Below are positions 1 to 22,064 of a stretch of 32,286 bases of DNA, piece after piece. The DNA is taken from NCBI GenBank assembly GCA_017452545.1, contig JAFTME010000030.1, forward strand, positions 1 to 32,286, in the 5' to 3' direction. Each line of letters opens with the position of its first letter. Position 1 is the first letter of the stretch. Under the pieces are notes generated by a model. It made no database searches, was not told where the DNA came from, and saw only the letters and a program-made list of their open reading frames with translations. A program made the translations under genes and the position numbers. Origin of the DNA: Clostridia bacterium. GTDB taxonomy: Bacteria > Bacillota > Clostridia > Oscillospirales > CAG-272.

Positions 1-539
1 CCGAAGATACCGAAGATATCAAAGTAACGGAAGCTCATGAACATCGAGAGCTGCAGCGTCTGGTGAGGAATGATCATGGTCAGCATGACCAGCATGAACA
101 GAAGCTTGTTGCCCTTGAAGCGGAACTTTGCAAAACCGTATCCAATCAAGCTACAGATGAAGGTCTGGATCAGAGCCGTGCTGAAGGAGAGGAAGAAGGT
201 GTTGCGAAGTGCCGTCCAATAACCCAGCTCGCTGAGAACGGCTTTATAGGTTTTCAGCGTGAAGTTCTTGGGGATCAGGCGAACCGTTACGTCAACGAAG
301 TCCTCCTGGCCCATGAAGGAGCTGGCAATCTTGGTAAAGAAGGGGAACAATACGACGTATGCGATACCGATCAGCAAGCACAGACGGAAGATGTACCAAA
401 CGACATTCTTCAGGAAGTACATGGAGAGGAATTTCGCCTTGAGACGTTCTTTGAGAGGGGTTCTCTCAAAATCAACACGAATCTTGTTCTTAGTCTCACG
501 CTTAATGGTGGGCTTGGACTGTGTATTTTGTGCGTTCAT
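1..539 (-). CDS. Carbohydrate ABC transporter permease, MalG type (C-terminus beyond window)
   Basis: Inner-membrane permease half of a sugar ABC importer, probably pairing with the MalF-type permease just upstream. The start ATG (537-539) has a strong GGAGGAG site 9 nt ahead. About 179 codons are visible. A charged N-terminal tail of about 50 residues leads to a first membrane segment (YIFRLCLLIGIAYVVLFPF), then a periplasmic stretch ending in the family's TLKTYKAVLSELGYWTALRNTFFL-like region, then further membrane segments (FICSLIGYGFAKFRFKG, LFMLVMLTMIIPHQTLQ). This is the usual MalG/CUT1 pattern. The EAA loop that contacts the ATPase lies past the window edge. It is the seventh gene of the operon, 21 nt after the preceding stop. 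The family is clear; the substrate is not. Confidence 0.9.
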   Translation of the reverse strand, partial: MNAQNTQSKPTIKRETKNKIRVDFERTPLKERLKAKFLSMYFLKNVVWYIFRLCLLIGIAYVVLFPFFTKIASSFMGQEDFVDVTVRLIPKNFTLKTYKAVLSELGYWTALRNTFFLSFSTALIQTFICSLIGYGFAKFRFKGNKLLFMLVMLTMIIPHQTLQLSMFMSFRYFDIFGIF

Positions 540-560
540 TCGTTAATTCTCCTCCTTTCC

Positions 561-1547
561 TTACATATCTTTCTTCTGGTAGAAGACATACGCCGAGAAG
601 ATACCGCCGATAATGGCAACGATCACGATAATGATCAGGAAGTAGATCCATGCCATTGCCGAGCTGAGCGTTTGTCCGTCTGCGTCGCCGTAAACCTCGG
701 CAACGTATTTCATGACTTGGTTAGAGTCGGTCGTAAACGAGTCGATGATGGTATAGACGCCGTTAACCAGGATCATCGGGCTGATCATCGGAAGGGTGAT
801 CTTCCAGAAGGTTTCCCAAGAGGTTGCGCCGTCGATGCGGCAGGACTCGTAAATTGCGGGAGAGATGGACTGCAGGGCTGCCAGGAAGATCAGCATCTGT
901 ACGCCGGAACGGTTAACGATATTGAAGATATTGTTAACTGCGTTTGCAACGTAGGTAACGATGCCCTGACCGACCTTCATGCCGGAGAACAGTCGCTGGA
1001 TATCCATAGCGGAGACGATTTCCGATGCCGCGCTGGATTCTTCACCCGTTTCGATACCCTCCGTGCTACCCATGTAGTCGCTCAGCGTGTTCTGTGCCTC
1101 GATGCCCTCCATGATACCGGTTGCAAGAACAACAGGCAGGAAGAAGATTGCACGGAATGCTGCACGGCCGACCATCTTCTGGTTCAAGAGAACTGCCATG
1201 AACAGAGAGAAGATCAGAATTGCGGGGATATCAAACGCCAACTGGGTCAAGCCGGAGGTCAGCGTTCTGAAGAAGTTGGGGTCGTCAAAGAGTGCGTCGT
1301 GGTAGTTTTTCCAACCGACGAACTCCAGCTCGTAGCCACCGCCCTGGACGATATTGACCGTATTGAAGCTCATGACGATAGAGTCATAAACCATCGGCAG
1401 GTAGACCAGGACAAAGCCAATGACGAACGGGAGGACAAAGAACCAACCCGCACGAGCCTTACGGCGATCGAGAGATGCGATTTTGCGCTTTTTGGGCGCA
1501 GCTTTATTTGCGCTTACTGTTGTTTTCAGCTTTGCTTCGTTTGTCAT
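561..1547 (-). CDS. Sugar ABC transporter permease, MalF/UgpA type (second permease pair)
   Basis: Integral membrane permease of a CUT1-type carbohydrate importer, 328 aa. The ATG at 1545-1547 is preferred over the adjacent TTG (1550) because AGAGGTG sits at proper distance from it. After a basic N-terminus (PKKRKIASLDRRKARAG) the first membrane segment is WFFVLPFVIGFVLVYLP. The EAA loop is visible near residue 240: YESCRIDGATSWETFWKITL, with the conserved D-G-A and I-LP pattern. Between the third and fourth core segments lies an unusually long, acidic extracytoplasmic stretch of about 50 residues (around 150-200, NTLSDYMGSTEGIETGEESS), which could contact a binding protein. It is 18 nt after the DUF5696 gene and 21 nt before the MalG-type partner, so it is co-transcribed. 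It stops with TAA. Confidence 0.92.
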   Translation of the reverse strand: MTNEAKLKTTVSANKAAPKKRKIASLDRRKARAGWFFVLPFVIGFVLVYLPMVYDSIVMSFNTVNIVQGGGYELEFVGWKNYHDALFDDPNFFRTLTSGLTQLAFDIPAILIFSLFMAVLLNQKMVGRAAFRAIFFLPVVLATGIMEGIEAQNTLSDYMGSTEGIETGEESSAASEIVSAMDIQRLFSGMKVGQGIVTYVANAVNNIFNIVNRSGVQMLIFLAALQSISPAIYESCRIDGATSWETFWKITLPMISPMILVNGVYTIIDSFTTDSNQVMKYVAEVYGDADGQTLSSAMAWIYFLIIIVIVAIIGGIFSAYVFYQKKDM

Positions 1548-1565
1548 CAATTACACCTCTCTTTC

Positions 1566-4500
1566 TCAATGCTGAATGACGACGTACTCATTCGCGGGGA
1601 TCGTGTAAACCTTTGCTACGCCATCAACATCATAGTTGACGGTAACAGCAAAGTTGTTATAGTTGAGAATGAAGGTCTTGTAAGGAGTTACGGTCAGGCC
1701 GTCCTTATCACCGTAGGTAACGGCAACGATATTACCGTTATTGATGAGATAAGGATTGACTTCCTCTTCAACTTCCTCTTCCTTCTCTTCCTCATCGGTG
1801 ATCAGGTATTCGTCGATCTCTTCCTTGGTAATGTTACCGGCGGCAGCCTTTTCGTAGATGGTAGATACGTAGGACTGGCAGATCTGAACCTGCTCTTCGA
1901 TTGCGGACAGGTAAGAAGCGGTATCCTCTGCACACTTCTGTGCATCCAGAATCAGCTCCTCTGCTGCACCTGCTGCGGTCAGCAGATCAACTGCCTTTGC
2001 AGCGTCAGCCTGCAGCTGCAGAACCTCATCATAGGTCTTGAGTGCATCCTGAGCCATCTGGATACCGTTGGTTGCTGCCTTACGGGCGTCGGTCAGCTGC
2101 GTTCTGTAGGACTTGAGTGCAGCCTTGATCTGGCCCTCGGTAGCGTTGGGTCTGTTCAGATAGTTCTGGTATGCTTCCCACTTGCTGATACTGTCGCGCA
2201 GCTTCTTATCGATCTCTGCGGTAGCAGTCTTGATCTTCTTTGCATCATCCTTAAGCTGCTCCAGGATCTTCTCCATGGTTTCTACACCGCTCTTGGCTGC
2301 AGCTCTTGCTGCGGCGATCTCGCGGATGCGCTCCAGAGCCATCTGCTCGTCGTACTGAGCCTCGTACTTTGCGCGCTCAGCCTCAGCAGCAGCGATCTCT
2401 GCCTGGATCTCGTCGGCATCCAGAATACGGATACCCTCGATGAACTCATGGTCAACGATCAGTTTGGTCTGAATATCGCCCATGACGCTATTCAGCTCAT
2501 TGTAAAGGGAGATCACGTCTTCCTTCCAAATTGCGTAGTTGATGGAGTAATACTGGGAGAGCTGGAAGAATTCCTTCAGCTCGCTGGTATTGCGGTAAGA
2601 GAGCGTGAAATACAGGGAGGAACCGTTTTCGATTGCCTTCAGCATTGCATAGTTAGCGTCGCCTTCCATGTTGATCGGCGTGCCTGCAAACTGGATATAA
2701 CCGTGCAGGACCAAACCGACGAACGGAATAGAACGGCTTGCCTTCATGAAGCGGGAGGAATCAAGGTCAACGTTGAGGATATGATCCAGATACTTCCAGG
2801 TGTATGCATTCGCGCCGTCAGCCATGATGCCGTTGACGTTTGCATCGGAGGAGATAGCAGCCAGTGCATTCTCAAGGAAGGTCTTGTTATCCTCGCGGTT
2901 GTAAGGCTCATCCTCATCGAAGTCGGTATTCAGGTCAGTACCCATGGTACTGAGCGAAATACCCATGCCGCCGAGGTCTGCATATTCTGCATACTCACCC
3001 AGCAGCTTGGTGTAGATGCGATCGATATACGCGGGAGAGATTGCTCTCTCGAAGTAACCGACATGAGTCTGCCAGCAAGGATCGTAATATCTCTTGGAGG
3101 TATAACGGTTATCGATGGTGCGGATCAGGTCGCGCTTGGGTCTGATGCCGTCGAACATCTCGGTCATGGACAGGTACTGCAGCTCAAACTCAGGGAAAAT
3201 ACCCAGGTGGCCGTCGCCCTTATTGACCGTGTTCGCGTAATCCAGCAGGCCCTCGAACTCAGCCTTGCCGCCGACCGACTTTTCCCACTTCAGCTTGGTG
3301 GGAGCAGTTGCGTACATACCGCCGTTTGCATAACCGGTCAGCTTGAAGTTGATGTTCTTAACGCCGGCCTCGGACAGCTCCTTATACATCAGCTCAATGT
3401 CGTCGAAGGTAGCCAGGGGCTTCATGACTTCTACGGGGAAGGACATGATCTGCTCCGTTACCTCGATGGCACCGAAGGACTCGATGTACAGGGGGATATC
3501 GTCGGTTACGTCAGCGTCGGTCAGGCGAGAGAGGATCTCCTTCTCTGTCAGATAATCGGTGTAGGCGGATGCCATGCCGACGTAATCTGCTGCGTAGAAG
3601 TTACCGCTCTCGGTATAACCGGTCTCGGTAGCCAGTGCGGGATCGGACAGCATGACGTAGCGGATCTTGAAGTTTCCGGTGTACTTTCTGTCGGAAACGA
3701 TAGTCATCGTGTTAGACTCGGAGACCGAGATTGCGTCGGACAGGTCGTAGGAATCCTTGGGACGGGGGTTGAAGTAGTTCATGATGGTGTGATAGTCGTT
3801 CAGGGAGCCGGCGTGATAGGTTGCCAGCTTACAGAGCGACTCACCCTCTTCAATGATTGCGAAGTAACCGTTCTGGTAGACGACCTCTTCAATTGCGGAG
3901 TAGTCGTCGTAGGTACCTGCGGTTACCTTCTCGTCCAGCAGGGTTTCCAGCTTTTCGATGCTCTTTGCAACCGTTGCGGAGATGGAGTGCTGCTCCTCGA
4001 CGAGCTCGGTTTCACCGGTCTCATCGTTCTCTACCTCGGTCGTGGTGGTGTAGGTGTAGAACATCTGGTCTTCCTTAATGCCGAAGACGGGCATACGCAG
4101 TGCCTTCTGATAGGTACCGCCATCCAGGTTATGGTAAGCGTAGTCAAGGCCGTAGATACGACGAGAGGTCGTATAGGTCTGCTTACCTGCCAGGTCCTCG
4201 AATGCGAACAGCGCACCGGAGCCGTCGGGATAGAAGGTATAACCGGTGTTATAGCTGTTACCTGCGCCCATGTAGGGCAGGATGCTGATGTGCTCCAAGG
4301 AGTACAGCGTGGAGTTAAAGCGAACGCCGTTTGTAGGCAGACGAACGGTAAAGCCGTCCTCGTTCAGCGTATACTCCAGTGCCATCTTAAAGACGGGAGA
4401 AAGCTCATTTTCGCTCTCGTAGCCGGTCTCTGCATGGTCAGCGTCCATCTGGTCGAAGGTGTAGTCAGGGCAGTAACCCTTGATCTGCTCCTCGATGAAG

Positions 4501-5228
4501 TTCAGCTCGACCGAGCTGATGGTGGGGTCAAGGCTGTAAACGTCCATCTCTGCGCAGATGGGGTACTTCTGCAGCAGCGCCTCTTTACCCTTCTTAGAGG
4601 TAGCGGTATCAAGATCCTGCAGCGTATAGAATGCACATACACGCTCGAAAGAGTGCGTACCGCCGATTGCCTCCTCCATGGGAGCCTTAATCAGCGTATC
4701 GAAGTTAGTACGGGAAATCAGGCGGGGTGCGAGCTTTCTCGTAGCCTCGTCACCGATGGTGTACTCTACGCGGACACCGGTCTTGATCTTCTTGACCTTG
4801 AGCTGATTGTTCAGCGCGGCATCCTTATAGGAATACATTTCCTTTTGCTGATCGTTATCTACATATTTGATAATGATCTGCGACAGGATCTGCTGCTTAT
4901 AGTTAGCAGAACCGATCGAGCTTGCGACGTCATAGGGGTTGGACAGAGAGATCTGACCGGTCTTCTTATTGACGATGGCAAAGGCTGCGGTAAAGTCGTT
5001 GAAATACATCTGGAAGTTGTCGTTTTCCATGTACAGCGTCATGTACTCGAGAACTTCCTCGGGCTTATTGAACACCTCAGTAGTGTAATCGATGGTGGAA
5101 GCGGTCTTGACCTCTTCCTCCTCTTCCGTTTCTGCTGCGCTGACGTTAAGCACAGAGAGGCAAGTCATAGAACCAAGCACCATCAAAACAGCTAAGAGGG
5201 TCGAGATTGTTCTTAAAAACAGTTTCAT
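1566..5228 (-). CDS. Secreted DUF5696 protein with coiled-coil insert
   Basis: Large exported protein of 1220 aa. It has a cleavable signal peptide (hydrophobic core at residues 8-27, likely cut after NVSA near residue 31) and then a run of glutamates. The body matches my recollection of DUF5696, a family typically coded beside CUT1 sugar importers in Firmicutes. The stretch at about 560-930 has alternating strand/helix segments reminiscent of a TIM-barrel glycosidase, but I cannot name catalytic residues. Residues about 937-1157 are an Ala/Glu/Lys/Gln-rich coiled coil ending in an acidic EEEKEEEVEEE run. It interrupts the domain before a final beta segment (about 1158-1220, with FILNYNNFAVTV). 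The start has AGGAG 9 nt upstream. It is fifth in the transporter operon, 23 nt after the Yip1 part. A role in handling the sugar outside the membrane is inference. Confidence 0.85.
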   Translation of the reverse strand: MKLFLRTISTLLAVLMVLGSMTCLSVLNVSAAETEEEEEVKTASTIDYTTEVFNKPEEVLEYMTLYMENDNFQMYFNDFTAAFAIVNKKTGQISLSNPYDVASSIGSANYKQQILSQIIIKYVDNDQQKEMYSYKDAALNNQLKVKKIKTGVRVEYTIGDEATRKLAPRLISRTNFDTLIKAPMEEAIGGTHSFERVCAFYTLQDLDTATSKKGKEALLQKYPICAEMDVYSLDPTISSVELNFIEEQIKGYCPDYTFDQMDADHAETGYESENELSPVFKMALEYTLNEDGFTVRLPTNGVRFNSTLYSLEHISILPYMGAGNSYNTGYTFYPDGSGALFAFEDLAGKQTYTTSRRIYGLDYAYHNLDGGTYQKALRMPVFGIKEDQMFYTYTTTTEVENDETGETELVEEQHSISATVAKSIEKLETLLDEKVTAGTYDDYSAIEEVVYQNGYFAIIEEGESLCKLATYHAGSLNDYHTIMNYFNPRPKDSYDLSDAISVSESNTMTIVSDRKYTGNFKIRYVMLSDPALATETGYTESGNFYAADYVGMASAYTDYLTEKEILSRLTDADVTDDIPLYIESFGAIEVTEQIMSFPVEVMKPLATFDDIELMYKELSEAGVKNINFKLTGYANGGMYATAPTKLKWEKSVGGKAEFEGLLDYANTVNKGDGHLGIFPEFELQYLSMTEMFDGIRPKRDLIRTIDNRYTSKRYYDPCWQTHVGYFERAISPAYIDRIYTKLLGEYAEYADLGGMGISLSTMGTDLNTDFDEDEPYNREDNKTFLENALAAISSDANVNGIMADGANAYTWKYLDHILNVDLDSSRFMKASRSIPFVGLVLHGYIQFAGTPINMEGDANYAMLKAIENGSSLYFTLSYRNTSELKEFFQLSQYYSINYAIWKEDVISLYNELNSVMGDIQTKLIVDHEFIEGIRILDADEIQAEIAAAEAERAKYEAQYDEQMALERIREIAAARAAAKSGVETMEKILEQLKDDAKKIKTATAEIDKKLRDSISKWEAYQNYLNRPNATEGQIKAALKSYRTQLTDARKAATNGIQMAQDALKTYDEVLQLQADAAKAVDLLTAAGAAEELILDAQKCAEDTASYLSAIEEQVQICQSYVSTIYEKAAAGNITKEEIDEYLITDEEEKEEEVEEEVNPYLINNGNIVAVTYGDKDGLTVTPYKTFILNYNNFAVTVNYDVDGVAKVYTIPANEYVVIQH

Positions 5229-5251
5229 TTCGTTGTTCTCCTATCTGTATA

Positions 5252-5683
5252 TTATACGCGGTACTGGATTTCTACTACGATATTGGTAATCAAGCTGATG
5301 ATCTTACCGACCAGCGTCGAGAAGAGCAGAGCGACGAAGATGATCAGTGCCATACCAACAATGGTGCCTACGAAGGTGATCAGGTTCTTACCCATGGAAT
5401 AATCGTGTGTAACCATCGTTCCAAAGAAGACCAGGATACCCATCCAGAACAGTGCGATGGTAAATACCAGCGCGATGAGCGAGGCTTCCGTCGTAATAAC
5501 GAAGTTAGACAGGAAGACTGCGGGGATCATCAGCAGCGGTACGGGAACTAGGGAGTAGGAAACGGCGATAAAGATATCCTTAAAGCTGCCTTCACCCTCG
5601 AAGAGCGTGGTCAAACACCAGTTTGCGGTTACGAACAGGAACAGCGGAACCAGTACGCCGATCAGCTGTGCCAGACTGGTGGA
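5252..5683 (-). pseudogene. C-terminal continuation of the NHL-Yip1 protein after an in-frame TAG
   Basis: These 143 codons follow directly and in the same frame from the TAG at 5684-5686 and end in TAA. They encode the rest of the Yip1-like membrane domain: four hydrophobic segments (for example LIGVLVPLFLFVTANWCLTT and FTIALFWMGILVFFGTMV) and the family's EGEGSFKDIFIAVSYSLVP motif. No base is inserted or lost. With the TAG read as an amino acid the whole protein would be 713 aa. I see no ribosome site or convincing start inside it, so separate translation is unlikely. It is either the dead tail of a truncated gene, a sequencing or assembly error, or part of a product made by reading through TAG. 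Confidence 0.7.
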
Positions 5684-7393
5684 CTAGCTGTTGGTGGGGT
5701 TCATAACGTAACCGATACCGATGGACTGATAGTAGAATGCGACAATGGTAAGGCCGACGAAGACGAGAGATGCACGCAGCGAGCCGCGCTTTTCGTGCTT
5801 CAGATCCCAGAAGCCATCGAAGGGATGGAACATGGTATGGAAGCCGAACAGGATCTCCTGCCAGAAGGTCTTGCGCTCACGACCGTCGGTCGAGACCTTT
5901 TTGTTGACCTTCTTTGCGTAGCCGAAGAACTTAACGACGATAACGATAGCAGCAACGACGATCAGGATCAGCAGGAGGAAGTAGCGAGACATCCACTCCT
6001 TACGAACCTCCTTATAGGCGTTGGACCAGTTGGTGGTATCGTATGCGGTTTCGTAGTACTCCAGAGCCTCGGCGTAGTCACCGCTGCGGTACAGTGCGTT
6101 ACCGATACCGATGTAGGCGGCGTCGAAGTTGGAGTTATGCTGAAGAACGCTTCTCCAGCAGGTGATAGCGTAGGTATAATCGAGCGAGTTCTCTGCGGCG
6201 ATTGCTTCCATGAGCAGGTCACCGTAGGGGGTTCTCTCGTAGACGACGACACAGTTACCGGACTTATCCAGAACCAGCATGGTATCGTCCTGATAGGTGA
6301 TCGCCTCAATGTTGGAGATGGAGCCCAGCATGGAGCCCTTATCACCAAAGGCAAACAGCAGATTACCGTTGAAGTCGTAGGTGTAGATCTTACTTCTCTT
6401 CTCGTCGATGATAGACCAGGTCTGATCGGGACCGCAGGCTACGTCGATGACACGGGAAACGCCGTTATAGGTTTCGGTGGGGTCGGTGGTATAATCGATC
6501 TCACCGGCGGGAGCGAAGAAGCCGTTACGTCTCATAATTTCGGAGCCGGCTGCGTTCAGCATCTTGACGGGAAGCTGATCGCCGTTCTTGGAACGGATTG
6601 CACCGGCGACCGTGCCCTCATCGATAGAGGAGGTGGTTACGTAGATATAACCGCGGTTCTGCTCGTTGGTGGTGATGGTGATGTTGTTAAACTCGGTGGA
6701 AACGTATTGCTGCTGCTGCTTTCTCTGTGCTTCGGTCTGGAATCTTCTCCAGATGATGTCCAGGAAAGAGATGGTAACCTTCTGTGCACCGATGAACTTA
6801 ACGAAGTCGCCGTTCTCCGTCAGAACGATAACGCCCTGATAGGTGGTAGAGGATACGACATACAGACGGTTCCAGTCGTCAACTGCAATCGCAACGGGCT
6901 TATAAACGCTGTCCTCTTCGAACAGTGCGCTTTCGGGCTCTTCAATCTGCTTGATGAAGTTACCGTCGCGGTCGAACACGACGATACGGCTCTTACCGGT
7001 ATCGCAGACCCAAATGCGGTCCTTGGTAACGTAGAGGCCCTGGGGGTTGGACAGAGCATCGTCGATACCCTGCTCGTTGATAAAGGTGCTGATATAGAAC
7101 TTAGCCTTATAATAACGGTCCAGTGCGATGATTCGGTTATTACCCGAGTCTGCGATGTAGACGTTATCATCCTCGTCGGTGATCAAGTCTGCGGGGTTAT
7201 TCAGACCCAGCTCGTCGATGCCCATTGCTGCAGCATCAAGCGAGATATACGCGGAGTACGCGTCGGGAGAGTTGACCGCATTACCATTGATATCGTAGGT
7301 ATAGCTCTTGTACGCCGAGGACGCGCTGACGGGAACGGACAGCAGCGTAATCATTGCAAGGACGACTGCAAGAACAGATATAATCTTTTTCAT
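5684..7393 (-). CDS. NHL-repeat/TPR/Yip1-domain membrane protein, ended early by TAG
   Basis: Exported, membrane-anchored protein read here as 569 aa. It has a signal peptide (residues 1-25, ending PVSAS), then NHL-type beta-propeller repeats (about 50-390) with recurring ADSGNNRIIALD and CDTGKSRIVVFD motifs, then TPR-like helices (about 395-465, GNALYRSGDYAEALEYYETA). One membrane span follows (471-490) and then the first part of a Yip1 domain. The reading frame stops at a TAG after NPTNS, in the middle of the Yip1 domain, and continues open beyond it. The start has GGAGG overlapping the preceding stop, 11 nt after the MalG-type permease. Proteins of this build are coded with sugar importers and DUF5696 proteins; their function is not established. 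A sensor or scaffold for the importer complex is my inference. Confidence 0.85.
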   Translation of the reverse strand: MKKIISVLAVVLAMITLLSVPVSASSAYKSYTYDINGNAVNSPDAYSAYISLDAAAMGIDELGLNNPADLITDEDDNVYIADSGNNRIIALDRYYKAKFYISTFINEQGIDDALSNPQGLYVTKDRIWVCDTGKSRIVVFDRDGNFIKQIEEPESALFEEDSVYKPVAIAVDDWNRLYVVSSTTYQGVIVLTENGDFVKFIGAQKVTISFLDIIWRRFQTEAQRKQQQQYVSTEFNNITITTNEQNRGYIYVTTSSIDEGTVAGAIRSKNGDQLPVKMLNAAGSEIMRRNGFFAPAGEIDYTTDPTETYNGVSRVIDVACGPDQTWSIIDEKRSKIYTYDFNGNLLFAFGDKGSMLGSISNIEAITYQDDTMLVLDKSGNCVVVYERTPYGDLLMEAIAAENSLDYTYAITCWRSVLQHNSNFDAAYIGIGNALYRSGDYAEALEYYETAYDTTNWSNAYKEVRKEWMSRYFLLLILIVVAAIVIVVKFFGYAKKVNKKVSTDGRERKTFWQEILFGFHTMFHPFDGFWDLKHEKRGSLRASLVFVGLTIVAFYYQSIGIGYVMNPTNS

Positions 7394-7404
7394 TGTAATC
7401 CTCC

Positions 7405-8277
7405 TTAATCTTTCATACCACTGGAACCCATGGTTTCAATGATATTGGACTGCGAAATAACGAATACGATGATCGGGACTGCCATCATCAGTACCAGAGA
7501 TGCTGCGGAAGCACCCGCACGCTTGATACCGCCGGCAGTGATCTGACCGATTGCATAGTTGAAGGTCTTGAGCTGCTCGGAGTAAATAAACACGGAAGCA
7601 CCTGCGTTCCAGAGGCCCTGGAAGGAGTAGATGATCAGCGTCAGCCAAGCGGGCTTAACCATGGGCATTGCGATGACCCAGAAGGTACGGAACTCGCTTG
7701 CACCGTCAAGTCTTGCACTCTCCAAAACGGCGTCGGTAACGTTGGTATCCATGAACTGCTTCATCAGGTACAGACCCAGCGTGGAAGCCCATGCGGGAAC
7801 GATGATTGCCCAGTAGGTATCGATCCACTTGAAAGCAGCCATAACGATGAACAAGCAGAGCGCGGTAACGGTCTGATGGAACATCAGCGACATCTCAACG
7901 GTCTTGAACATCAGGACGCGGCCCGGGAACTTGATCTTTGCCAGTGCGTAAGCACACATGGAGGCGAGGAGCAGGTGTCCGAAGGTACCGGCAATGGAGA
8001 TGAAGACGGTGTTGAAGATGTAACGGGTGAAGGGCACCCAGGAGGTGTTCATCAGGATGAACAGATCCTTAAAGTTATCGAGTGTGGGGTTGATTACGTA
8101 AAAACGGGGAGGATACATCCAAAGCTCGTCAAGAGGCTTCAGCGACTGCATGATAACGTAGATCATAGGCAGGAACATGAAGGCACCCAAGATCACCAGC
8201 ATGAATGTAATTCCGGCGTCGCCTCCCGCAGAGCGGGAGAGGACGACCTTATGCTTTCTTGTTCTAAGTTTTGCCAT
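7405..8277 (-). CDS. Carbohydrate ABC transporter permease, MalG type (first permease pair)
   Basis: Inner-membrane permease of 290 aa, the usual size for MalG-type CUT1 proteins. The first span is ITFMLVILGAFMFLPMIYVI, followed by QSLKPLDELWMYPPRFYVIN, a typical periplasmic start. The ATPase-contacting EAA loop is LESARLDGASEFRTFWVIAM near residues 185-205. It starts only 1 nt after the stop of the MalF-type partner, so the two are translationally coupled. A weak AAGGTAGG-like site lies within the partner's end. It ends in TAA just before the ribosome site of the NHL-Yip1 gene. It forms a heterodimer with the product of 8279-9229 by analogy with MalFG; the substrate is unknown. Confidence 0.93.
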   Translation of the reverse strand: MAKLRTRKHKVVLSRSAGGDAGITFMLVILGAFMFLPMIYVIMQSLKPLDELWMYPPRFYVINPTLDNFKDLFILMNTSWVPFTRYIFNTVFISIAGTFGHLLLASMCAYALAKIKFPGRVLMFKTVEMSLMFHQTVTALCLFIVMAAFKWIDTYWAIIVPAWASTLGLYLMKQFMDTNVTDAVLESARLDGASEFRTFWVIAMPMVKPAWLTLIIYSFQGLWNAGASVFIYSEQLKTFNYAIGQITAGGIKRAGASAASLVLMMAVPIIVFVISQSNIIETMGSSGMKD

Positions 8278-8278
8278 A

Positions 8279-9229
8279 TTAAGTACCTACCTTCGACAGC
8301 ATTCTCTTGATCAGCATATTGGAGCCGATCATGACTGCGAACAGCACGACGGCGATCGCAGAGGCGTAACCCATTTCATAACGCTGGTTTGCAAAGTCTT
8401 CCAAATGGTGCATGATGGTATGTGCGGAATAGTCAACCGAGGGGAAGCCGCACAGTGCGGTTACGACGCCACCGAAGCCGAAGGCACCGGTGATTGCCAT
8501 GACTGCACCGAACATCAGCTGCGGACGCATGGAGGGCAGCGTGATGTACCAAAGCTCCTGCCAACGGTTACGGATACCGTCAACGGCACCTGCCTCGAAC
8601 AGTGCGCGGTCGATACCCTGCAGACCTGCGATAAAGGACAGGAACGCGGTACCGAGCGACGTCCAGAGGGCGACGATGATACAAAGCGGCATGACGTACT
8701 CGGCATTCTGGAACCATGCGATAGGCTCAACGATGATACCAAGCTCGATCAGAGATGCGTTGACCCAGCCGTAAGCGTCGGCGGAGAACAGCGTACCCCA
8801 AATCAGATACACCTGACCGGAGATGGACGGTGCGTAGAAGATCAGAGTAACGATAGCACGGACACGGGGATCCAGCTCGTTGATGAACCATGCAACGAGG
8901 AACGACAACAGGTAGGACACAGGACCTACGACGCACGCGAACAGCAGCGTGTTCTTACATGCGATCAGGAAGATGTCGTCGTCGAAAAACAGGGTGATGT
9001 AATTGTCCAGCCAAACGATATTGGGGGGCAATTGCAACATATTAAAGTCGGTGAAGCTGATGAACGCCGACAGAATGACGGGCATGACGGTGAAGATGGT
9101 GAAGAGGATCATGTAGGGTGCAACCATGAGGTATGCGACCTTATTGACCTTCATTTCCTTCCATATCCACTGAGCACGAGTCATATCTGTACGGGACACC
9201 GCTTTCAGTTCTGCAGTTTTCTGTGACAT
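8279..9229 (-). CDS. Sugar ABC transporter permease, MalF/UgpA type (first permease pair)
   Basis: Integral membrane permease of 316 aa. After a cytoplasmic tail the first span is VAYLMVAPYMILFTIFTVMP, followed by the LSAFISFTDFNMLQLPP region and the family pattern W.DNYITLF. The EAA loop near residues 215-240 is FEAGAVDGIRNRWQELWYIT, then LPSMRP. AAGGAG lies about 9 nt before ATG. It begins 43 nt after the substrate-binding protein gene and is overlapped closely by the MalG-type partner. The visible hydrophobic segments fit six spans. No nucleotide-binding subunit is coded nearby, so it must use a shared ATPase (MsmK/UgpC-like) from elsewhere or one to the left of the window. Confidence 0.93.
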   Translation of the reverse strand: MSQKTAELKAVSRTDMTRAQWIWKEMKVNKVAYLMVAPYMILFTIFTVMPVILSAFISFTDFNMLQLPPNIVWLDNYITLFFDDDIFLIACKNTLLFACVVGPVSYLLSFLVAWFINELDPRVRAIVTLIFYAPSISGQVYLIWGTLFSADAYGWVNASLIELGIIVEPIAWFQNAEYVMPLCIIVALWTSLGTAFLSFIAGLQGIDRALFEAGAVDGIRNRWQELWYITLPSMRPQLMFGAVMAITGAFGFGGVVTALCGFPSVDYSAHTIMHHLEDFANQRYEMGYASAIAVVLFAVMIGSNMLIKRMLSKVGT

Positions 9230-9272
9230 TTATGCTCTCTCCTTTTATGATAGTAATTCAAGCAAGCGCAGA

Positions 9273-12200
9273 TCAGTACGTGCTCAGTGCCTCTGCAGCG
9301 TCGGACAGACACTCGGCTGCGAAGAAGAGGAGCTGATCGTAGGTAAGACCGTCGATATCATAACCGCCGTTCTTCTTTTCCTGATCCTGTCTGGAAACCT
9401 TGACATAGTAATCATCTACATTCTTGGATGCAAGGCGTTCCATCAAAGCATCTGCACAATCCTGCAGAATAATGATTTCTTCATCTGCAATCGCATTGGA
9501 TGCGGTGATCATAATTGTTTCAAGCTCTGCACTCTGCTCTACCAGGAGCTCAAGTGCAACCATTGCCTGCTCACCGCGCTTATCGGCCAGCGTCTGACCG
9601 ACCTCAAGCGTCTCAAGCAGGAACTCTGCACGCTTACGGGTAATCTCCTTGTTGATGGTGTTGATGTAGCCCAGCAAGCTTGCAACGGGATCGGCATCCT
9701 TGTTGTAAGCAGCAAGGAATGCAAAGTTGGTATAACGGTCGATGTAGTAGGTACCGGGGTAGTTGGGGATTGCTGCGAGGTTTTCGAACTGCTTGGAAAC
9801 CTCAACGTACTCCTCGGTGGTCCAAGGCAGCGATCTCAGAGCTTCTCTGTTTGCGGTGTTGTGCTTTGCAGAGTCACCCATGATAGCAGCCATTTCGTTT
9901 GCGTAGTCAGCCTGGCAGGTAGCGCCGGTAAACCACTTCAGATACTCCCAAGCCTCGTCTTCCTGGTCGCAGCCCTTGACGATAACGTCGGCGAGGACAC
10001 CGGAAACGGAGCAGTTGTTGATTGCGCCGGTCTCTTCATCCAGGGTACCGGGCATCGGAACGAACTTCCACAGACCGTCGATCTCGGTTGCGAAGACCTT
10101 GAGCTGGTTGTACATACCGGTATAGTCGGCAACCAGGATAGGCATCTCACCCGTTCTGAAACGGTTTGCAGCATTGTAGGTGTAGGGGAAGCCGCGCATG
10201 GTGAACAGCGTACACATGGTCTCGAATGCATCCAGACCCTCCTTGGAGTCCAGATTGATTCTCATACCGCCGTCAGCGAACAGGTCGCTGCCGCCCTGGT
10301 ACAGGAACACCTTGTAGTCGGTCGTCAGACCGATCTCCATGTTGTTACCCTCAAGGACCGTCTGTGCCTCGTAGATATCGTCCCAGGTTTTGGGGATCTC
10401 GATACCCATATCGGCAAGAACGTCGATACGAACGAACATCATGCTGAAGCCCTGCGTTTCGGGCAGACCGTAGTAGTGCAGCTCATCGTCTGCGTTTGCA
10501 ATACCGAGAACCATCATTGCGGAGTCGGTAAAGTTCTTGGTGACCTCTTCGAAGTCCTCGCGGACGGTGCCGTCGGACTTAACGTCCAGCGTTTCCAGCG
10601 CACCGCGGATCGCGTAGTTGATGATGGTACCTGCGTCAATTCCCAGGAAGACGTCAGGGCCCATGCCTGCCAGGATGGAAGGCATCAGCGTACCGCCGGC
10701 AACCAGCTTAAGGTCGACGGGGATACCGGTCGTGGGTGTGAAGCCGTCGGTGGTCAGCGCACGGATGACCTGAGACTGGTCACGTGCGGTCTGCAGCCAA
10801 ACCTCAAGAGAATCCTCGGTCGTCTCAGCCATAGCACCCATGGAGTTATAGTCACGGATGAAGGACTGGATAAAGGAGGAGATCTCGTGTGCGATCTTCT
10901 TGAAGAAGCCGGGCTCAGCTACGGGCAGCTCCGAATCAACGGGCTGGATCAGAATGTAGTCAAGCTGCAGGGGCTGTTTCTTTGCGTCGGAGAGGAAGGT
11001 ACCCAGCGAACCGATGTGGGTCTTGAGCTGCTCCAGGTTGGGAGCGATCTCGTCCTCTTCGTGCATCTTAAACAGCGTTTCGGCAACCTTCTCCAGCGTA
11101 GCAACGGTGGAGGAGCTGGAGCCCGCGATTGCCTTCAGCTCAGCTGCGACCTCGTACAGTCGGCGGGACTGCTCGACCATATCGGACAGCGTCTGAGGCA
11201 TAACGCGCGTGAAGTTATAGTCACGGTAATCGTCGGGGGAGGTACCGGTCAGACGGAGGATGTTCAGGTAGTCTGCGTTGACGCAGTTCAGAACGTTCTC
11301 GATCTTTGCGATGACCTCAGCCATGCTACCCAGCGTAACGTCAAGGCGCAGCGTGTAGGTAACGCCCTCGACGAAGTAGAACTGGTATTTGATCAGGTTA
11401 CCGTTTGCATCCACGTCACCGTTGACGGTGCTGGTGGACTGCCAGTAACCGGAATAGTTAAAGCGTGCAGCAGCGACCTCTGCGAAGGGGTAGCCGTTAT
11501 AGTAGCCGTCGTCGCCTTCCTTCAGACCGTCGCTGTACAGCTGAATTGCACGGCTGACGAACAGACCGTCAAGCACGGACTGTTTAAAGCGGAAGTCCAG
11601 CGTATAGAGACCGGTGGAGTCTACCTCGAAGGTATACTCGACGCTCTGACCGGGAGTTCCCCACTTCTCACCGCCGTTACCGCCGATGGTGTTCAGCAGC
11701 GTACGGGTGGTATCCGTAGGAGAGTTTGCGGCAGAAGCGCGGTCCTCTGCGGGATACAGCGTGTTGGAGGACAGGTTGGTGGGATACTCAGCCTCGAGCT
11801 TAATGGTGGAGGCACCCTTGGGAGCGTTCGCGTACTTTGCGATGTACTCCTCGTAGGTGATCAGGTCCTCGTGAGGATACAGCTCGATCTTGGAGATCGC
11901 CATAGCCTCGTTGACGCCCTTGAGCGTCAGAGTGACCTTACCCTCGGCATCGGGCTCGATGATGTACTCGAAGGACTCGGCGTTATAGCCCTGGCTGTCG
12001 CGCAGCTCGTATACGCGCCACTCGGGAGTCTGAACCGTCGAGGGACGCAGCTCGTTGCGCTGCAGGTCGATGGTCATAAAGCGAACGCCGAGCGTATCGT
12101 TCAGATACGTGGAAACGGCTTCCGTCCAGACCGTCGGGAAGGTATATATAATGTAGGTGCCATCCTCGCGGGTCTCCTCGGTTGCAACGACGCCAATATC

Positions 12201-12824
12201 CTTAGCAGCGTTGAGGAGCTCGCTTGCACTCTCATCCTTGCCTACCTTATAAGCAGCGCTTGCGTACTCGTTTGCCCAAACCTTCTCGAAGCTCAGCGAA
12301 CGAGACTCCTTGAAAGCAGCACTGCCGTTGATATAAAACTCTCTCTCCACAGCCGCGGACTTACCGGCGACGGGATAGTAGTAGACGCGTGCGCTGTACA
12401 GACCGGCGGGGACATCGGTCAAGGTCCAGCTGACGGAGCCGTCTCCAGGCGTATACAGGCCCTTCTGGCCGTCGAATTCACCGGCATAAATACCCTTGGG
12501 GTTATTGGCGGCATCGTCGTCATTCAGCAGCGCCCACTGCTCATCCGTCAACCACTCCAGCGTGGTCTTTTCCTCGTCAAGATCCTTGATTGCATCGAAT
12601 ACGACGGTTTCCTTCGCTCTTTCGTAATATTCGAAGCTATCGTTGTACTCATCGTACGAAATCGACTCGAGCTCTTCCTTATAATCAGCAATCGTCTTTT
12701 CGGTGACGGTGCTGTTGATCACAACGTCGCCTTCCTGCGCGGATACAGTAAAGATACTGCAGCCGAGGAGAAGCGTCATTGCGAGCAAGAAAGAAGCCAC
12801 TCTTTGAAATTTCGTTTTTCTCAT
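9273..12824 (-). CDS. Giant extracellular solute-binding protein with carbohydrate-binding-like domains
   Basis: Exported sugar-binding protein of 1183 aa, more than twice the usual 400-450. The N-terminus is a signal peptide; LLGC at 19-22 could be a lipobox, although TVSA followed by Gln could instead be cut by signal peptidase I. Residues about 110-320 and 341-505 look like beta-sandwich carbohydrate-binding modules (the second opens with IKLEAEYP, as in CBM6/35-type domains). About 540-660 is helical. Residues about 660-1070 are the binding-protein core, with the RDQSQVIRALTTDGFTPTTG start, GPDVFLG and TWDDIYEAQTVL motifs typical of CUT1 binding proteins. A helical tail follows. GGAGGAAAG precedes the ATG. 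It is the first gene of the operon and is preceded by a roughly 360-nt leader. It would deliver substrate to the permeases; the ligand is unknown. Confidence 0.92.
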   Translation of the reverse strand: MRKTKFQRVASFLLAMTLLLGCSIFTVSAQEGDVVINSTVTEKTIADYKEELESISYDEYNDSFEYYERAKETVVFDAIKDLDEEKTTLEWLTDEQWALLNDDDAANNPKGIYAGEFDGQKGLYTPGDGSVSWTLTDVPAGLYSARVYYYPVAGKSAAVEREFYINGSAAFKESRSLSFEKVWANEYASAAYKVGKDESASELLNAAKDIGVVATEETREDGTYIIYTFPTVWTEAVSTYLNDTLGVRFMTIDLQRNELRPSTVQTPEWRVYELRDSQGYNAESFEYIIEPDAEGKVTLTLKGVNEAMAISKIELYPHEDLITYEEYIAKYANAPKGASTIKLEAEYPTNLSSNTLYPAEDRASAANSPTDTTRTLLNTIGGNGGEKWGTPGQSVEYTFEVDSTGLYTLDFRFKQSVLDGLFVSRAIQLYSDGLKEGDDGYYNGYPFAEVAAARFNYSGYWQSTSTVNGDVDANGNLIKYQFYFVEGVTYTLRLDVTLGSMAEVIAKIENVLNCVNADYLNILRLTGTSPDDYRDYNFTRVMPQTLSDMVEQSRRLYEVAAELKAIAGSSSSTVATLEKVAETLFKMHEEDEIAPNLEQLKTHIGSLGTFLSDAKKQPLQLDYILIQPVDSELPVAEPGFFKKIAHEISSFIQSFIRDYNSMGAMAETTEDSLEVWLQTARDQSQVIRALTTDGFTPTTGIPVDLKLVAGGTLMPSILAGMGPDVFLGIDAGTIINYAIRGALETLDVKSDGTVREDFEEVTKNFTDSAMMVLGIANADDELHYYGLPETQGFSMMFVRIDVLADMGIEIPKTWDDIYEAQTVLEGNNMEIGLTTDYKVFLYQGGSDLFADGGMRINLDSKEGLDAFETMCTLFTMRGFPYTYNAANRFRTGEMPILVADYTGMYNQLKVFATEIDGLWKFVPMPGTLDEETGAINNCSVSGVLADVIVKGCDQEDEAWEYLKWFTGATCQADYANEMAAIMGDSAKHNTANREALRSLPWTTEEYVEVSKQFENLAAIPNYPGTYYIDRYTNFAFLAAYNKDADPVASLLGYINTINKEITRKRAEFLLETLEVGQTLADKRGEQAMVALELLVEQSAELETIMITASNAIADEEIIILQDCADALMERLASKNVDDYYVKVSRQDQEKKNGGYDIDGLTYDQLLFFAAECLSDAAEALSTY

Positions 12825-17096: not shown

Positions 17097-18113
17097 TCAA
17101 CCTCCGTAGGACAGCGCGAGCATCCAAAGCATGATCATTTCCACGACGGTAATGGCGACGAACGCCGTCATCAGCGGAGAGAAAAAGCCGCGAATGCGAT
17201 AGTGGGGAGAGACACAGCTTTCGTTTTCCTGCCCCTCGGAGCTGCTCTCACCCGCTTGCTTCGTCCGCTCACGGCGTCGGATCAGCACGATCAACGCGAC
17301 CATACCGCCGCCGATCAGCACAAGCTCGAGCAGAGCGATCACGCGATTGGCGCTGACGGTATCCAGGCGATCCCAGAGGATACTGTTGATGACGGAGGAG
17401 AGGTTATTGAGAAAATGCATCAGCGTCGATGCCCAGATGGAGCGCGTTTCGACATAGATGATGCCGAGCACCACGCCTGCCATGGTTGCGTACAGCATCT
17501 GACCGAGGTTTTGGTGCATCAGTCCAAAGAGCAGCGCACTGCTGAGAATGGCGGACGTTTTTCCGTAGGGCAGAAGATTTCCGAGCACGAGACCGCGGAA
17601 CAGCAGCTCCTCGCAAAAGGCGGGAACGATGGCAGTACCGATAAACATCAAGATGCCCTGGTAGTCGGTCAGCGTGGAGGTATCCCAAAGCACCTCGGAG
17701 GAAAATTCGGAATACAGCAGCAGATCGGAGATCCAGGAATTGATGATCGCCGTACAGTGGATGACGGCGATCCCCGCGAGCAGCAGTAACGGCGTGTGGC
17801 GCGGAAGCACGGGGGTGAGCTTGATTGGAACGCGGTCTTCCTTTTTGGCAAGAAAACGGAACAGCACGACGGGGGTGGCAAACGAAACGAAATACCGCAG
17901 GCTGCCGAGCAGATCCTCAACGGTGTACGCCACCTCGTGCGGCAGAACATTGTTTGCCCAAAGGACAATGGGGGAGGTCAGAACCGACAGCGTGGAAAAC
18001 AGCGCGAGAAAAATGAGCAGCGCTGCGCCAAGGCGGTTGGTCATGCGACAGTATGCCGCATCCTTTGCCGTCGGCTGCGGTCTCGCAATGACATCGCGTA
18101 TGCTTCTTTTCAA
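17097..18113 (-). CDS. CPBP family intramembrane metalloprotease (first copy)
   Basis: Multispan membrane protein of 338 aa in the CAAX protease/bacteriocin-processing (Abi) family. The catalytic motif EExxxR is at Glu168-Glu169 and Arg173 (PAFCEELLFRGLVLG), with His200 in FGLMHQN and His233 in HFLNNLSS. I choose the TTG start at 18113 because GGAGGGG stands 7 nt ahead and because the perfect promoter at 18150-18178 lies downstream of any longer ATG start (18302). The upstream extension would translate repeat DNA. The substrate of this family is generally unknown; roles in peptide processing or self-immunity are documented for some members. It heads an operon with tadA. Confidence 0.88.
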   Translation of the reverse strand: MKRSIRDVIARPQPTAKDAAYCRMTNRLGAALLIFLALFSTLSVLTSPIVLWANNVLPHEVAYTVEDLLGSLRYFVSFATPVVLFRFLAKKEDRVPIKLTPVLPRHTPLLLLAGIAVIHCTAIINSWISDLLLYSEFSSEVLWDTSTLTDYQGILMFIGTAIVPAFCEELLFRGLVLGNLLPYGKTSAILSSALLFGLMHQNLGQMLYATMAGVVLGIIYVETRSIWASTLMHFLNNLSSVINSILWDRLDTVSANRVIALLELVLIGGGMVALIVLIRRRERTKQAGESSSEGQENESCVSPHYRIRGFFSPLMTAFVAITVVEMIMLWMLALSYGG

Positions 18114-18149
18114 GGTCGCTCCCCTCCTCTCCCGTAATACATTATAAAT

Positions 18150-18178
18150 ATTATAAACGACTTCGATCCGTATGTCAA
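18150..18178 (-). promoter_or_regulatory. Consensus sigma-A promoter of the CPBP-tadA operon
   Basis: Minus strand TTGACA (18173-18178), 17-nt spacer, TATAAT (18150-18155), a perfect match. Transcription would start near 18143, giving a leader of about 30 nt and settling the CPBP start at 18113. Confidence 0.85.
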
Positions 18179-18232
18179 GAGCGCTTTCGTATCTTTTATA
18201 TCGGGGCGCTGCCCGATGGAGAATTAAATTGA

Positions 18233-18773
18233 GGCGGGGGGAACTTTTTTGAAAAAAAGTTTCCCCCGCACCCCCTTTAAAAAACTTTGAAAAGAAAATC
18301 ATTTTCTTCTTTTCAAAAGTTCTTTGGGATCCAAGCCCTTTCTTTCAAGAAAGGGCTTGGCGGGGCTTGGGGCAGCGCCCCATTGAGCGAAAGATAAAAA
18401 GGCGGGGGAAACTTTTTTGAAAAAAAGTTCCCCCCGCACCCCCTTCAAAAAACATTCAAACGAAAATCATTTTCTTCTTTTCAAAAGTTCTTTGGGATCC
18501 AAGCCCTTTCTTTCAAGAAAGGGCTTGGCGGGGCTTGGAGCAGCGCCCCATTGAGCGAAAGATAAAAAGGCGGGGGGAACTTTTTTTAAAAAAGTTCCCT
18601 CCGCACCCCCTTCAAAAATCTTTGAAAAGAAAATCATTTTCTTCTTTCCAAAAGTTCTTTGGGATCCAAGCCCTTTCTTTCAAGAAAGGGCTTGGCGGGG
18701 CTTGGGGCAGCGCCCCATTGAGCGAAAGATAAAAAGGCGGGGGGGAACTTTTTTTCAAAAAAGTTCCCCCCGC
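18233..18773. repeat. Tandem array of a 168-bp palindromic unit, 3.2 copies
   Basis: Copies start at 18233, 18401, 18569 and (partial) 18736, spacings 168, 168 and 167 bp, with only scattered differences. Each unit opens with a long palindrome (GCGGGGGGAACTTTTTT and its complement), then ACCCCCTTCAAAAA, an AT-rich part, a second hairpin AAGCCCTTTC-TTTCAA-GAAAGGGCTT, a GGCAGCGCCCC stretch and GCGAAAGATAAAAA. No coding sense is convincing. It separates the DUF2500/glnN operon from the CPBP promoter. The palindrome also occurs at 31230 and 32087, so it belongs to a dispersed family. Confidence 0.9.
18731..18773 (-). terminator. Intrinsic terminator of the glnN-DUF2500 operon, within the repeat array
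   Basis: On the minus strand the GC-capped palindrome (18736-18773) is followed by TTTTT (18731-18735), 17 nt after the DUF2500 stop. The copies at 18569 and 18401 are also followed by TTTTT, making backup terminators. Confidence 0.75.
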
Positions 18774-18789
18774 TACTAATTATTAATCA

Positions 18790-19155
18790 TTAAATTCGTT
18801 CAAAGCTGATATAGCGTGTACCTTGGAGGGTGAGCTTACCGGTATCGCCTTCGACGAGCATACCGTATTCGGTACCCTGCACGCGCAGCTCCTGGCGGTC
18901 GCCGCTCTCGAACTGGAAGGTGACGTAATAGCTATAGGAGGTAGAGCGATGATAGACGCCGTTACTTCCGTGTCTATGATGCCCCGACACGCTCATGCGC
19001 TTGGTCACCACGGTGGCATCGACGATCAGGCGCGGGGAGTGGTTATTTTTATCCCACTGGACAAGGCTTTTGATCAGCGAAACGATGACAACGGCGAACA
19101 CCAATCCAAAGATGAAGAAAAAGAAGATCGGGAAGATAGATGCAACAACACCCAT
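18790..19155 (-). CDS. DUF2500 membrane-anchored protein
   Basis: Small protein of 121 aa with one N-terminal membrane span (VASIFPIFFFFIFGLVFAVVIVSLI) and a soluble beta-rich domain. The sequence fits DUF2500: WDKNNHSPRLIVDATVVTKR, YYVTFQFESGDRQELRV, EYGMLVEGDTGKLTLQGTRY. The function of the family is unknown. AAGGAGGAG lies 8 nt before ATG. It begins 25 nt after the glutamine synthetase stop and has no promoter of its own that I can see, so it is the second gene of that operon. It ends in TAA, with the terminator palindrome starting 17 nt further. Confidence 0.92.
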   Translation of the reverse strand: MGVVASIFPIFFFFIFGLVFAVVIVSLIKSLVQWDKNNHSPRLIVDATVVTKRMSVSGHHRHGSNGVYHRSTSYSYYVTFQFESGDRQELRVQGTEYGMLVEGDTGKLTLQGTRYISFERI

Positions 19156-19180
19156 AAGAAAGCTCCTCCTTACTGTTTAT

Positions 19181-21283: not shown

Positions 21284-21310
21284 AGGTGCGCTCTCTCCTT
21301 GATATTGCAA

Positions 21311-21328
21311 GCTGCCGCGTGCGGCAGC
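21311..21328 (-). promoter_or_regulatory. GC-rich hairpin in the glnN leader
   Basis: GCTGCCGC and GCGGCAGC (21311-21318, 21321-21328) form a perfect palindrome about 12-30 nt after the expected transcription start and before the ribosome site. It may stabilise the transcript or bind a regulator. Confidence 0.45.
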
Positions 21329-21346
21329 AAAACTTCTTTACAGGAA

Positions 21347-21375
21347 ATTATACCCCCTGCGGCTATATTTGTCAA
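21347..21375 (-). promoter_or_regulatory. Consensus sigma-A promoter of the glnN operon
   Basis: Minus strand TTGACA (21370-21375), 17-nt spacer, TATAAT (21347-21352): a perfect match, about 57 nt upstream of the ATG. Confidence 0.85.
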
Positions 21376-21428
21376 GGGGGGCAGCGAAATTTGTCGCAAT
21401 TATGTCTGCTCTTCTCCTTCGATGACGA

Positions 21429-21457
21429 TTGACAAAGCGGCTGCGGTGTGGTACAAT
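21429..21457 (+). promoter_or_regulatory. Promoter of the DJ-1/CPBP operon
   Basis: TTGACA (21429-21434), 17-nt spacer, TACAAT (21452-21457); divergent from the glnN promoter with 53 nt between the -35 boxes. The TTG of the -35 box is not a start codon. Confidence 0.8.
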
Positions 21458-21494
21458 TAAGCATCAACGTTACACGGTACGGAGGGTATTATCT

Positions 21495-22064
21495 ATGGTC
21501 GTATTGTTTCTTGCCAACGGATTTGAGGAGGTCGAGGCGCTGATGCCGCTGGATCTTTTGCGCCGCGCAGGTGTCGAGGTGACGACGGTTGCCATCGGCG
21601 GCAGCGGTGCGGATGAGCGCTGCATCACGGGCGCACACGGTATTTCCGTGCTGGCTGATATCTCAGCGGCCGATTTTGCTCTGCCCAACAACGTAGAAAT
21701 GGTCATTCTGCCCGGCGGCATGCCCGGTGCGAGCAATCTGGATGCATCACCGCTGGTGGACAGCGTTTTACGTGCTGCGCATAACCGCGGCGCCTATCTT
21801 GCCGCCATTTGTGCTGCGCCGCTCATTCTCGGTCGCAGAGGCTATCTTGACGGCAAGCGCGCCACCTGCTATCCCGGCTTTGAGCAAGAGCTGATCGGTG
21901 CAACGGTGGTCAAGGGAGGCTGCGTGGTTGACGGCAAGGTGATAACGGCTGCCGGCATGGGGGTTGCGTACGCGTTTGGCATGGCACTGGTCGAGGTGCT
22001 TTGCGGCGGCGCGTGTGCTGACCGTATCCACGCTGCCGTAATGGCACCGGGGGCACGCGCATGA
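21495..22064 (+). CDS. DJ-1/PfpI family protein
   Basis: Small cytoplasmic protein of 189 aa of the DJ-1/ThiJ/PfpI superfamily (YajL-like branch), members of which act as glyoxalases, chaperones or redox-sensing proteins. It opens with MVVLFLANGFEEVEA, where Glu14 matches the conserved glutamate, and has the reactive cysteine Cys106 in the nucleophile elbow AAICAAPLILG. GGMPGASNL and CYPGFE are also family features. GGAGGG lies 8 nt before the ATG; the promoter at 21429-21457 rules out earlier starts. Its stop overlaps the start of the next gene (ATGA at 22061-22064), so the two are translationally coupled. The specific activity cannot be told from sequence. Confidence 0.93.
   Translation: MVVLFLANGFEEVEALMPLDLLRRAGVEVTTVAIGGSGADERCITGAHGISVLADISAADFALPNNVEMVILPGGMPGASNLDASPLVDSVLRAAHNRGAYLAAICAAPLILGRRGYLDGKRATCYPGFEQELIGATVVKGGCVVDGKVITAAGMGVAYAFGMALVEVLCGGACADRIHAAVMAPGARA

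Follow-up and report, generated by a model that had tools for sequence, protein, structure and literature searches.

Related transport systems

Sharing of one ATPase among ATP-binding cassette (ABC) carbohydrate importers of the CUT1 class is well documented (PMC5730181, PMC7658222). In the MsmX systems of Bacillus subtilis, MalF/MalG permease pairs have no dedicated ATPase gene, the one MsmX-type ATPase being encoded elsewhere, and the substrate-binding protein (SBP) has a domain resembling maltose-binding protein (MBP) (PMC5730181, PMC7658222). In tripartite tricarboxylate transporter (TTT) systems the disproportion lies with the binding proteins, with 79 SBPs in B. pertussis and no more than four membrane components in Bordetella, sharing of the translocator being unproven there too (PMC5994714). 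Both patterns are relevant to a seven-gene sugar importer operon at the start of a 32,286-nucleotide (nt) stretch of DNA from a Clostridia bacterium of the order Oscillospirales (contig JAFTME010000030.1, GenBank assembly GCA_017452545.1), the whole of which is referred to here as the window.

The operon resembles the MsmX systems in all of the respects named above. Unlike them, it combines two dissimilar permease pairs with an NHL-TPR-Yip1 protein and a protein with the fold of glycoside hydrolase family 129 (GH129), and the translocator too, rather than the ATPase alone, appears to be common to many SBPs. In genomic pattern alone it is like the orphan SBP expansions of TTT systems (the Bug proteins of Bordetella, and Rhodoplanes), in which dozens of paralogous SBPs are found with very few membrane components (PMC5994714). 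TTT systems are an ATP-independent class with TctC-type periplasmic SBPs, whereas the orphan SBPs described below, termed S2-like, are lipoproteins homologous to CUT1-type SBPs. From gene order, conservation, folds, lipoboxes, co-occurrence and the numbers of SBPs, permeases and ATPases, the operon is probably a shared carbohydrate-import hub, with a dual translocator and one ATPase serving many interchangeable SBPs. No description of such a many-SBP, one-translocator pattern for ABC sugar importers was found in the literature searched, although one may exist elsewhere, and the same literature yielded no paper on DUF5696 or on ABC carbohydrate systems with NHL and Yip1 proteins.

The operon and its conservation

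The genes of the operon are as follows, the NHL-Yip1 gene occupying two lines.

9273-12824, minus strand: giant SBP lipoprotein of 1183 residues; PF01547 (SBP_bac_1) at residues 690-968 (E 2e-16), with an LLGC lipobox in the sequence
8279-9229, minus strand: MalF1-type permease of pair 1; PF00528 (E 4e-6), UgpA-like NCBIfam match, EAA loop
7405-8277, minus strand: MalG1-type permease of pair 1; PF00528 (E 3e-6), UgpE-like
5684-7393, minus strand: NHL propeller, TPR, one transmembrane helix and the start of Yip1, ending at an in-frame TAG; PF01436 (E 1.5e-12), TPR_2 (E 2e-7)
5252-5683, minus strand: rest of the Yip1 membrane domain, in the same frame downstream of the TAG; PF04893 (E 1.2e-9, profile positions 67-173)
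1566-5228, minus strand: DUF5696 protein; PF18952 (E 2e-128), GH129/GH101/GH36-like fold, long coiled-coil insert, candidate nucleophile position T761
561-1550, minus strand: MalF2-type permease of pair 2; PF00528 (E 7e-8), EAA loop, conserved directly after DUF5696
3-539, minus strand: 5′ part of the MalG2-type permease, truncated where the contig ends; complete on contig C57 (L213:6544-7578), the C57 protein matching PF00528 (E 2e-9)

A preliminary description of this DNA had reported seven genes in tight order, and the coordinates bear this out, with all genes on the minus strand from 12824 to 3 and intergenic gaps of 1-43 nt. It had also counted two complete permease pairs, which is correct for four permeases with EAA coupling loops but not for the window itself, as this starts at a contig end and so holds only part of MalG2. 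The complete gene is carried by contig C57, whose overlap with the start of the window spans 456 nt and has 7 mismatches. PF00528 is matched by all four permeases (MalG2 being read from C57), the EAA loop of MalG1 is conserved across 15 relatives and a MalF1 orthologue is present in every complete locus. In keeping with the earlier claim, the pairs are not recent copies, since identity is low (36% over 58 residues between MalF1 and MalF2, 23% over 263 residues between MalG1 and MalG2) and all four permeases keep the EAA loop. Recent duplication of one pair is ruled out by this 23-36% identity over the aligned parts together with distinct orthologous groups across families.

The reported lack of an ATPase holds for the operon and extends to the cassettes of the loci surveyed, in which no such gene was seen, but the window's genome does encode one unlinked MsmX-type ATPase (ABC_tran, OB_MalK and TOBE domains), located on contig C80. 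The system thus has MalF/MalG permeases with EAA loops, an MBP-like SBP of the cluster D type and a MalK/MsmX-type ATPase elsewhere in the genome, as expected of a CUT1 importer. The C80 ATPase most likely energises the cassette permeases.

The gene order giant SBP-MalF1-MalG1-NHL-Yip1-DUF5696-MalF2-MalG2 on one strand was found in 39/39 loci whose contigs reach all genes, these being drawn from an order-wide set of 40 chosen loci of which one is cut by a contig end. In a further 80 named loci, found independently with MalG1 as the query, the exact order recurred in 67; contig ends cut short most of the others, and a split gene or an extra hit was met in single loci. These loci come from metagenome-assembled genomes, mainly of herbivore gut. 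DUF5696 was detected in 161 of the 295 genomes sampled from the window's order and in 46/398 from the phylum, some of these genomes giving no more than weak matches, and the cassette recurs, with exceptions, in other Bacillota families outside the order. This neighbourhood survey substantiates the earlier suggestion of a recurrent, functionally linked grouping in Bacillota. No relatives of DUF5696 were found in viral contigs. In L091, an Omp85/POTRA (BamA-like) protein lies just downstream of the cassette (L091:12920-17091), making this genome a probable diderm member of the Bacillota.

Two modules and a second binding protein

The cassette is made up of two modules, the giant SBP-MalF1-MalG1 (module 1) and NHL-Yip1-DUF5696-MalF2-MalG2 (module 2). 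In L079, L080 and L081 module 2 is accompanied by an ordinary-size SBP, termed S2, with no giant SBP, MalF1 or MalG1 nearby, and in L090 the two modules are in swapped order. Outside the window's order, several families carry S2 next to the cassette, where it precedes the giant SBP in L073-L077 and follows MalG2 directly, or one gene on, in L078-L082, L084 and L086-L088; the S2 of L088 matches SBP_bac_1 (E 1.6e-27). Within the window's order an S2 gene next to the cassette is unusual; in L132 and L164 an S2-like gene directly follows MalG2. The preliminary description, in which a single binding protein served both pairs, is not supported in that form, given these genes and the unlinked S2-like lipoproteins described below. 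An arrangement in which each pair has its own SBP, which it had set against its own model as a sign of two fused independent operons, is found in part, in the second SBP beside the cassette outside the order, the solitary module 2 with S2 and the swap.

This separability of the modules, each with its own SBP outside the order, would also fit two ordinary CUT1 importers that are merely co-transcribed, the giant SBP working with MalF1-MalG1 and one unlinked S2 with MalF2-MalG2, while the remaining S2-like proteins bind or sense glycans without feeding an importer. Sensing roles have been proposed for orphan SBPs of other transporter families (PMC5994714). Within the window's order, however, the modules are never separated in any complete locus read, and some other shared role would have to account for the 66 full-length SBPs kept in one genome that lacks further CUT1 permeases. 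This explanation is considered rather unlikely.

The genes flanking the cassette outside the order include varied enzymes, namely GH30, GH31, GH26 with a carbohydrate-binding module (CBM35), GH43, GH3, GH106, a pectate lyase and an apiosidase-like protein, which points to the import of diverse plant-type oligosaccharides rather than of one substrate. Within the order, no recurrent flanking gene other than S2 was found that could serve as a clue to substrate. The lack of recurrent carbohydrate genes there, S2 apart, could be taken to favour a mechanotransmission or export device, formed by MalF2-MalG2 with NHL-Yip1 and DUF5696 and acting, for example, on the bacterium's own cell-envelope glycans, but the position of S2 outside the order, adjoining module 2 near pectin, rhamnose, apiose, galactan and xylan-type enzymes, fits import and makes such a device very improbable.

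Orphan S2-like lipoproteins

The genome of the window encodes 16 S2-like proteins (14 intact and full-length, one split and one divergent copy) on 12 contigs, all unlinked to the cassette. No permeases were found beside them in the neighbourhoods examined, their neighbours including GH31 with CBM35, GH38, a CE2-type esterase and carbohydrate-binding proteins. Most of these orphans give no Pfam SBP match, which is why PF01547 finds only three SBPs in this genome; they are identified as SBPs by an invariant lipobox Cys and by their homology to the cassette-linked S2 proteins (hhalign E 2e-32, 430 columns), among which are members that match SBP_bac_1. Of MalG-type permeases this genome has two, both encoded by the cassette.

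A similar disproportion between S2-like proteins and MalG-type permeases was counted in G029 (66 and 2), G087 (24 and 3), G217 (9 and 2), G091 (5 and 2), G060 (5 and 2) and G178 (4 and 2), most of the genomes counted having one OB_MalK ATPase. In the window's genome, G029 and G087, all the MalG-type permeases, or all but one, belong to the cassette, and six stretches of G029 that carry 12 S2 genes contain no permeases. In contrast G626, a genome of Paenibacillus size and of the usual kind, has 58 MalG-type permeases and 3 S2-like proteins. DUF5696 is present in 115 of the 122 order genomes with S2-like proteins (Fisher p ~1e-34, uncorrected for phylogeny).

We infer transport itself, and the substrates, from this genomic record, and the hub would be expected to work as follows. 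Modules 1 and 2 would be two CUT1-type ABC importers, most likely powered by the one unlinked MsmX-type ATPase, with module 2 ancestrally paired with S2. In the window's order S2 would have multiplied into scattered orphan lipoproteins, some beside glycan-degrading genes, each capturing a different oligosaccharide and handing it over to the shared translocator, such that the giant SBP would deliver to pair 1 and the orphans to MalF2-MalG2. The membrane-anchored propeller protein NHL-TPR-Yip1 and the secreted DUF5696 would form a platform at the cell surface on which loaded SBPs are received or dock.

A number of observations weigh against the hub. The counts of SBPs, permeases and ATPases rest on genome searches of mostly draft assemblies, an OB_MalK match was absent from the search of G034 and G029 has two. 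The co-occurrence test takes no account of shared ancestry, and in 46 genomes of the order, 36 of them with strong matches to DUF5696, this protein is present with no S2-like protein detected, which argues that the orphans are not obligatory. Extra MalG-type permeases in G010, G108, G034, G020, G087 and G188 could take the orphans. Sensing or surface binding could be the role of some orphan SBPs, a question also under debate for those of TTT systems (PMC5994714).

Many of the S2-like genes of G029 are arranged in tandem pairs or triplets, and several of the 66 matches hold a single TAA, which may be either their own stop codon or gene decay. On contig C118, an SBP_bac_5 lipoprotein adjoins the S2-like orphan with the top profile score (L175:3839-6100), with no Opp permeases in the locus.

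Predicted structures of the giant SBP and DUF5696

The AlphaFold2 model of the giant SBP (pLDDT 88, pTM 0.81) has approximately 640 N-terminal residues forming two beta-sandwich regions and a helical region, followed by an MBP-like SBP domain at 670-1069 and a C-terminal helical bundle. Its best structural match is the beta-1,2-glucooligosaccharide-binding protein 5ysb (Z 36.3, root-mean-square deviation 2.5 over 368 residues).

The predicted model of DUF5696 (pLDDT 87, pTM 0.78) has the GH129/GH101/GH36 architecture of beta-sandwich, TIM barrel and C-terminal domain, with Z 29.0 to DagB (5opq) and 27.8 to NagBb (5wzn) over more than 570 residues. The DUF5696 core is thus like GH129 and GH129-like enzymes (NagBb, DagB/ZGAL_3152; PMC5698469) in its whole three-domain fold. 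A search of the PDB with the single sequence gave no match, the family profile being required to detect DagB (E 4e-10) and NagBb (E 1.5e-5). DUF5696 differs from both enzymes in its low identity (~14%), its long coiled-coil insert and, in the window's order, a Thr or Ser at the probable nucleophile position. A catalytic Asp is common to DagB (D486) and NagBb (D435) (PMC5698469), and the position taken as its equivalent is that in x-Asp-Leu-Gly at the end of beta-4, T761 in the window, an approximate equivalence to D435 that was set by spacing from an aligned VPF/VPL motif in a short profile alignment and not by superposed coordinates. In a residue survey using this approximate mapping, 100/115 sequences from the order have Thr or Ser at position 761, whereas 14/20 from outside it have Asp. 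From the aligned sequences, DUF5696 of the window's order has probably lost its nucleophile and may act as a scaffold rather than an enzyme; because the mapping is approximate, we only infer the loss of catalysis.

The preliminary description had proposed a single envelope machine, with the giant SBP as the sole binding protein for both permease pairs and DUF5696 as a hydrolase acting on a polymer. The tight, conserved operon and the GH129-like fold are in keeping with such a machine, the fold giving half of the support that polymer processing by DUF5696 would need. The residues found at position 761, not acidic in most of the order, and the existence of a second SBP family that adjoins module 2 in other families count against it, and the proposal is judged improbable.

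The in-frame TAG and the rest of the window

A single TAG at 5684-5686, in the loop that follows the first helix of Yip1, splits the NHL-Yip1 gene without a change of reading frame. The 31 aligned relatives all lack a stop at this position, the residue there often being Tyr, and the TAG reflects either an error in sequencing or assembly or a recent nonsense mutation. An alternative code with TAG as sense is unsupported, because the aligned relatives lack this TAG and no internal stops occur in 50 ABC-ATPase matches of the genome. Membership of the Yip1 family is borne out by the intact fused gene of L045, which matches Yip1 2-172 (E 3.7e-13), and by L088 (Yip1 E 6e-24). In distant members of the cassette family, NHL and Yip1 are separate genes.

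Downstream of MalG2 on C57, and on the same strand, genes for a response regulator, a histidine kinase and a heparinase II/III-like protein (L213:2407-6372) could possibly regulate or extend the operon. Elsewhere in the window there are two nearby Rce1-like CAAX protease genes (17097-18302 and 22061-23035), between which are encoded two proteins with no Pfam family match (18995-20305 and 20318-21460). A GH127 beta-L-arabinofuranosidase-like gene (27948-29813) is not next to the importer operon. No riboswitch or other Rfam family was found in the window.

Implications for glycan uptake in gut Clostridia

In the genomes counted, a large group of Clostridia from the herbivore gut seems to rely for CUT1-class sugar uptake on one conserved channel cassette, which appears to be the sole importer of its class in gut bacteria of this lineage and to serve up to ~66 scattered SBPs. 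Standard annotation shows one binding protein and overlooks most of the orphans. Taken in full, the proposal is more tentative, namely that these uncultured bacteria might possess a glycan-uptake hub in which 16-66 interchangeable SBP lipoproteins (in the richest genomes) feed one dual CUT1 translocator and its ATPase on a platform of NHL-TPR-Yip1 and a catalytically lapsed GH129-fold protein. If there is such a hub, its extent would be comparable with the SusCD repertoires of Bacteroidota, but with a single shared channel complex. This raises the questions of how a single ABC translocator would accommodate dozens of SBPs and of the part that NHL-Yip1 and DUF5696 would play in making this possible. 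Were the hub confirmed, the substrate range of these uncultured bacteria would be readable from their S2 repertoire.

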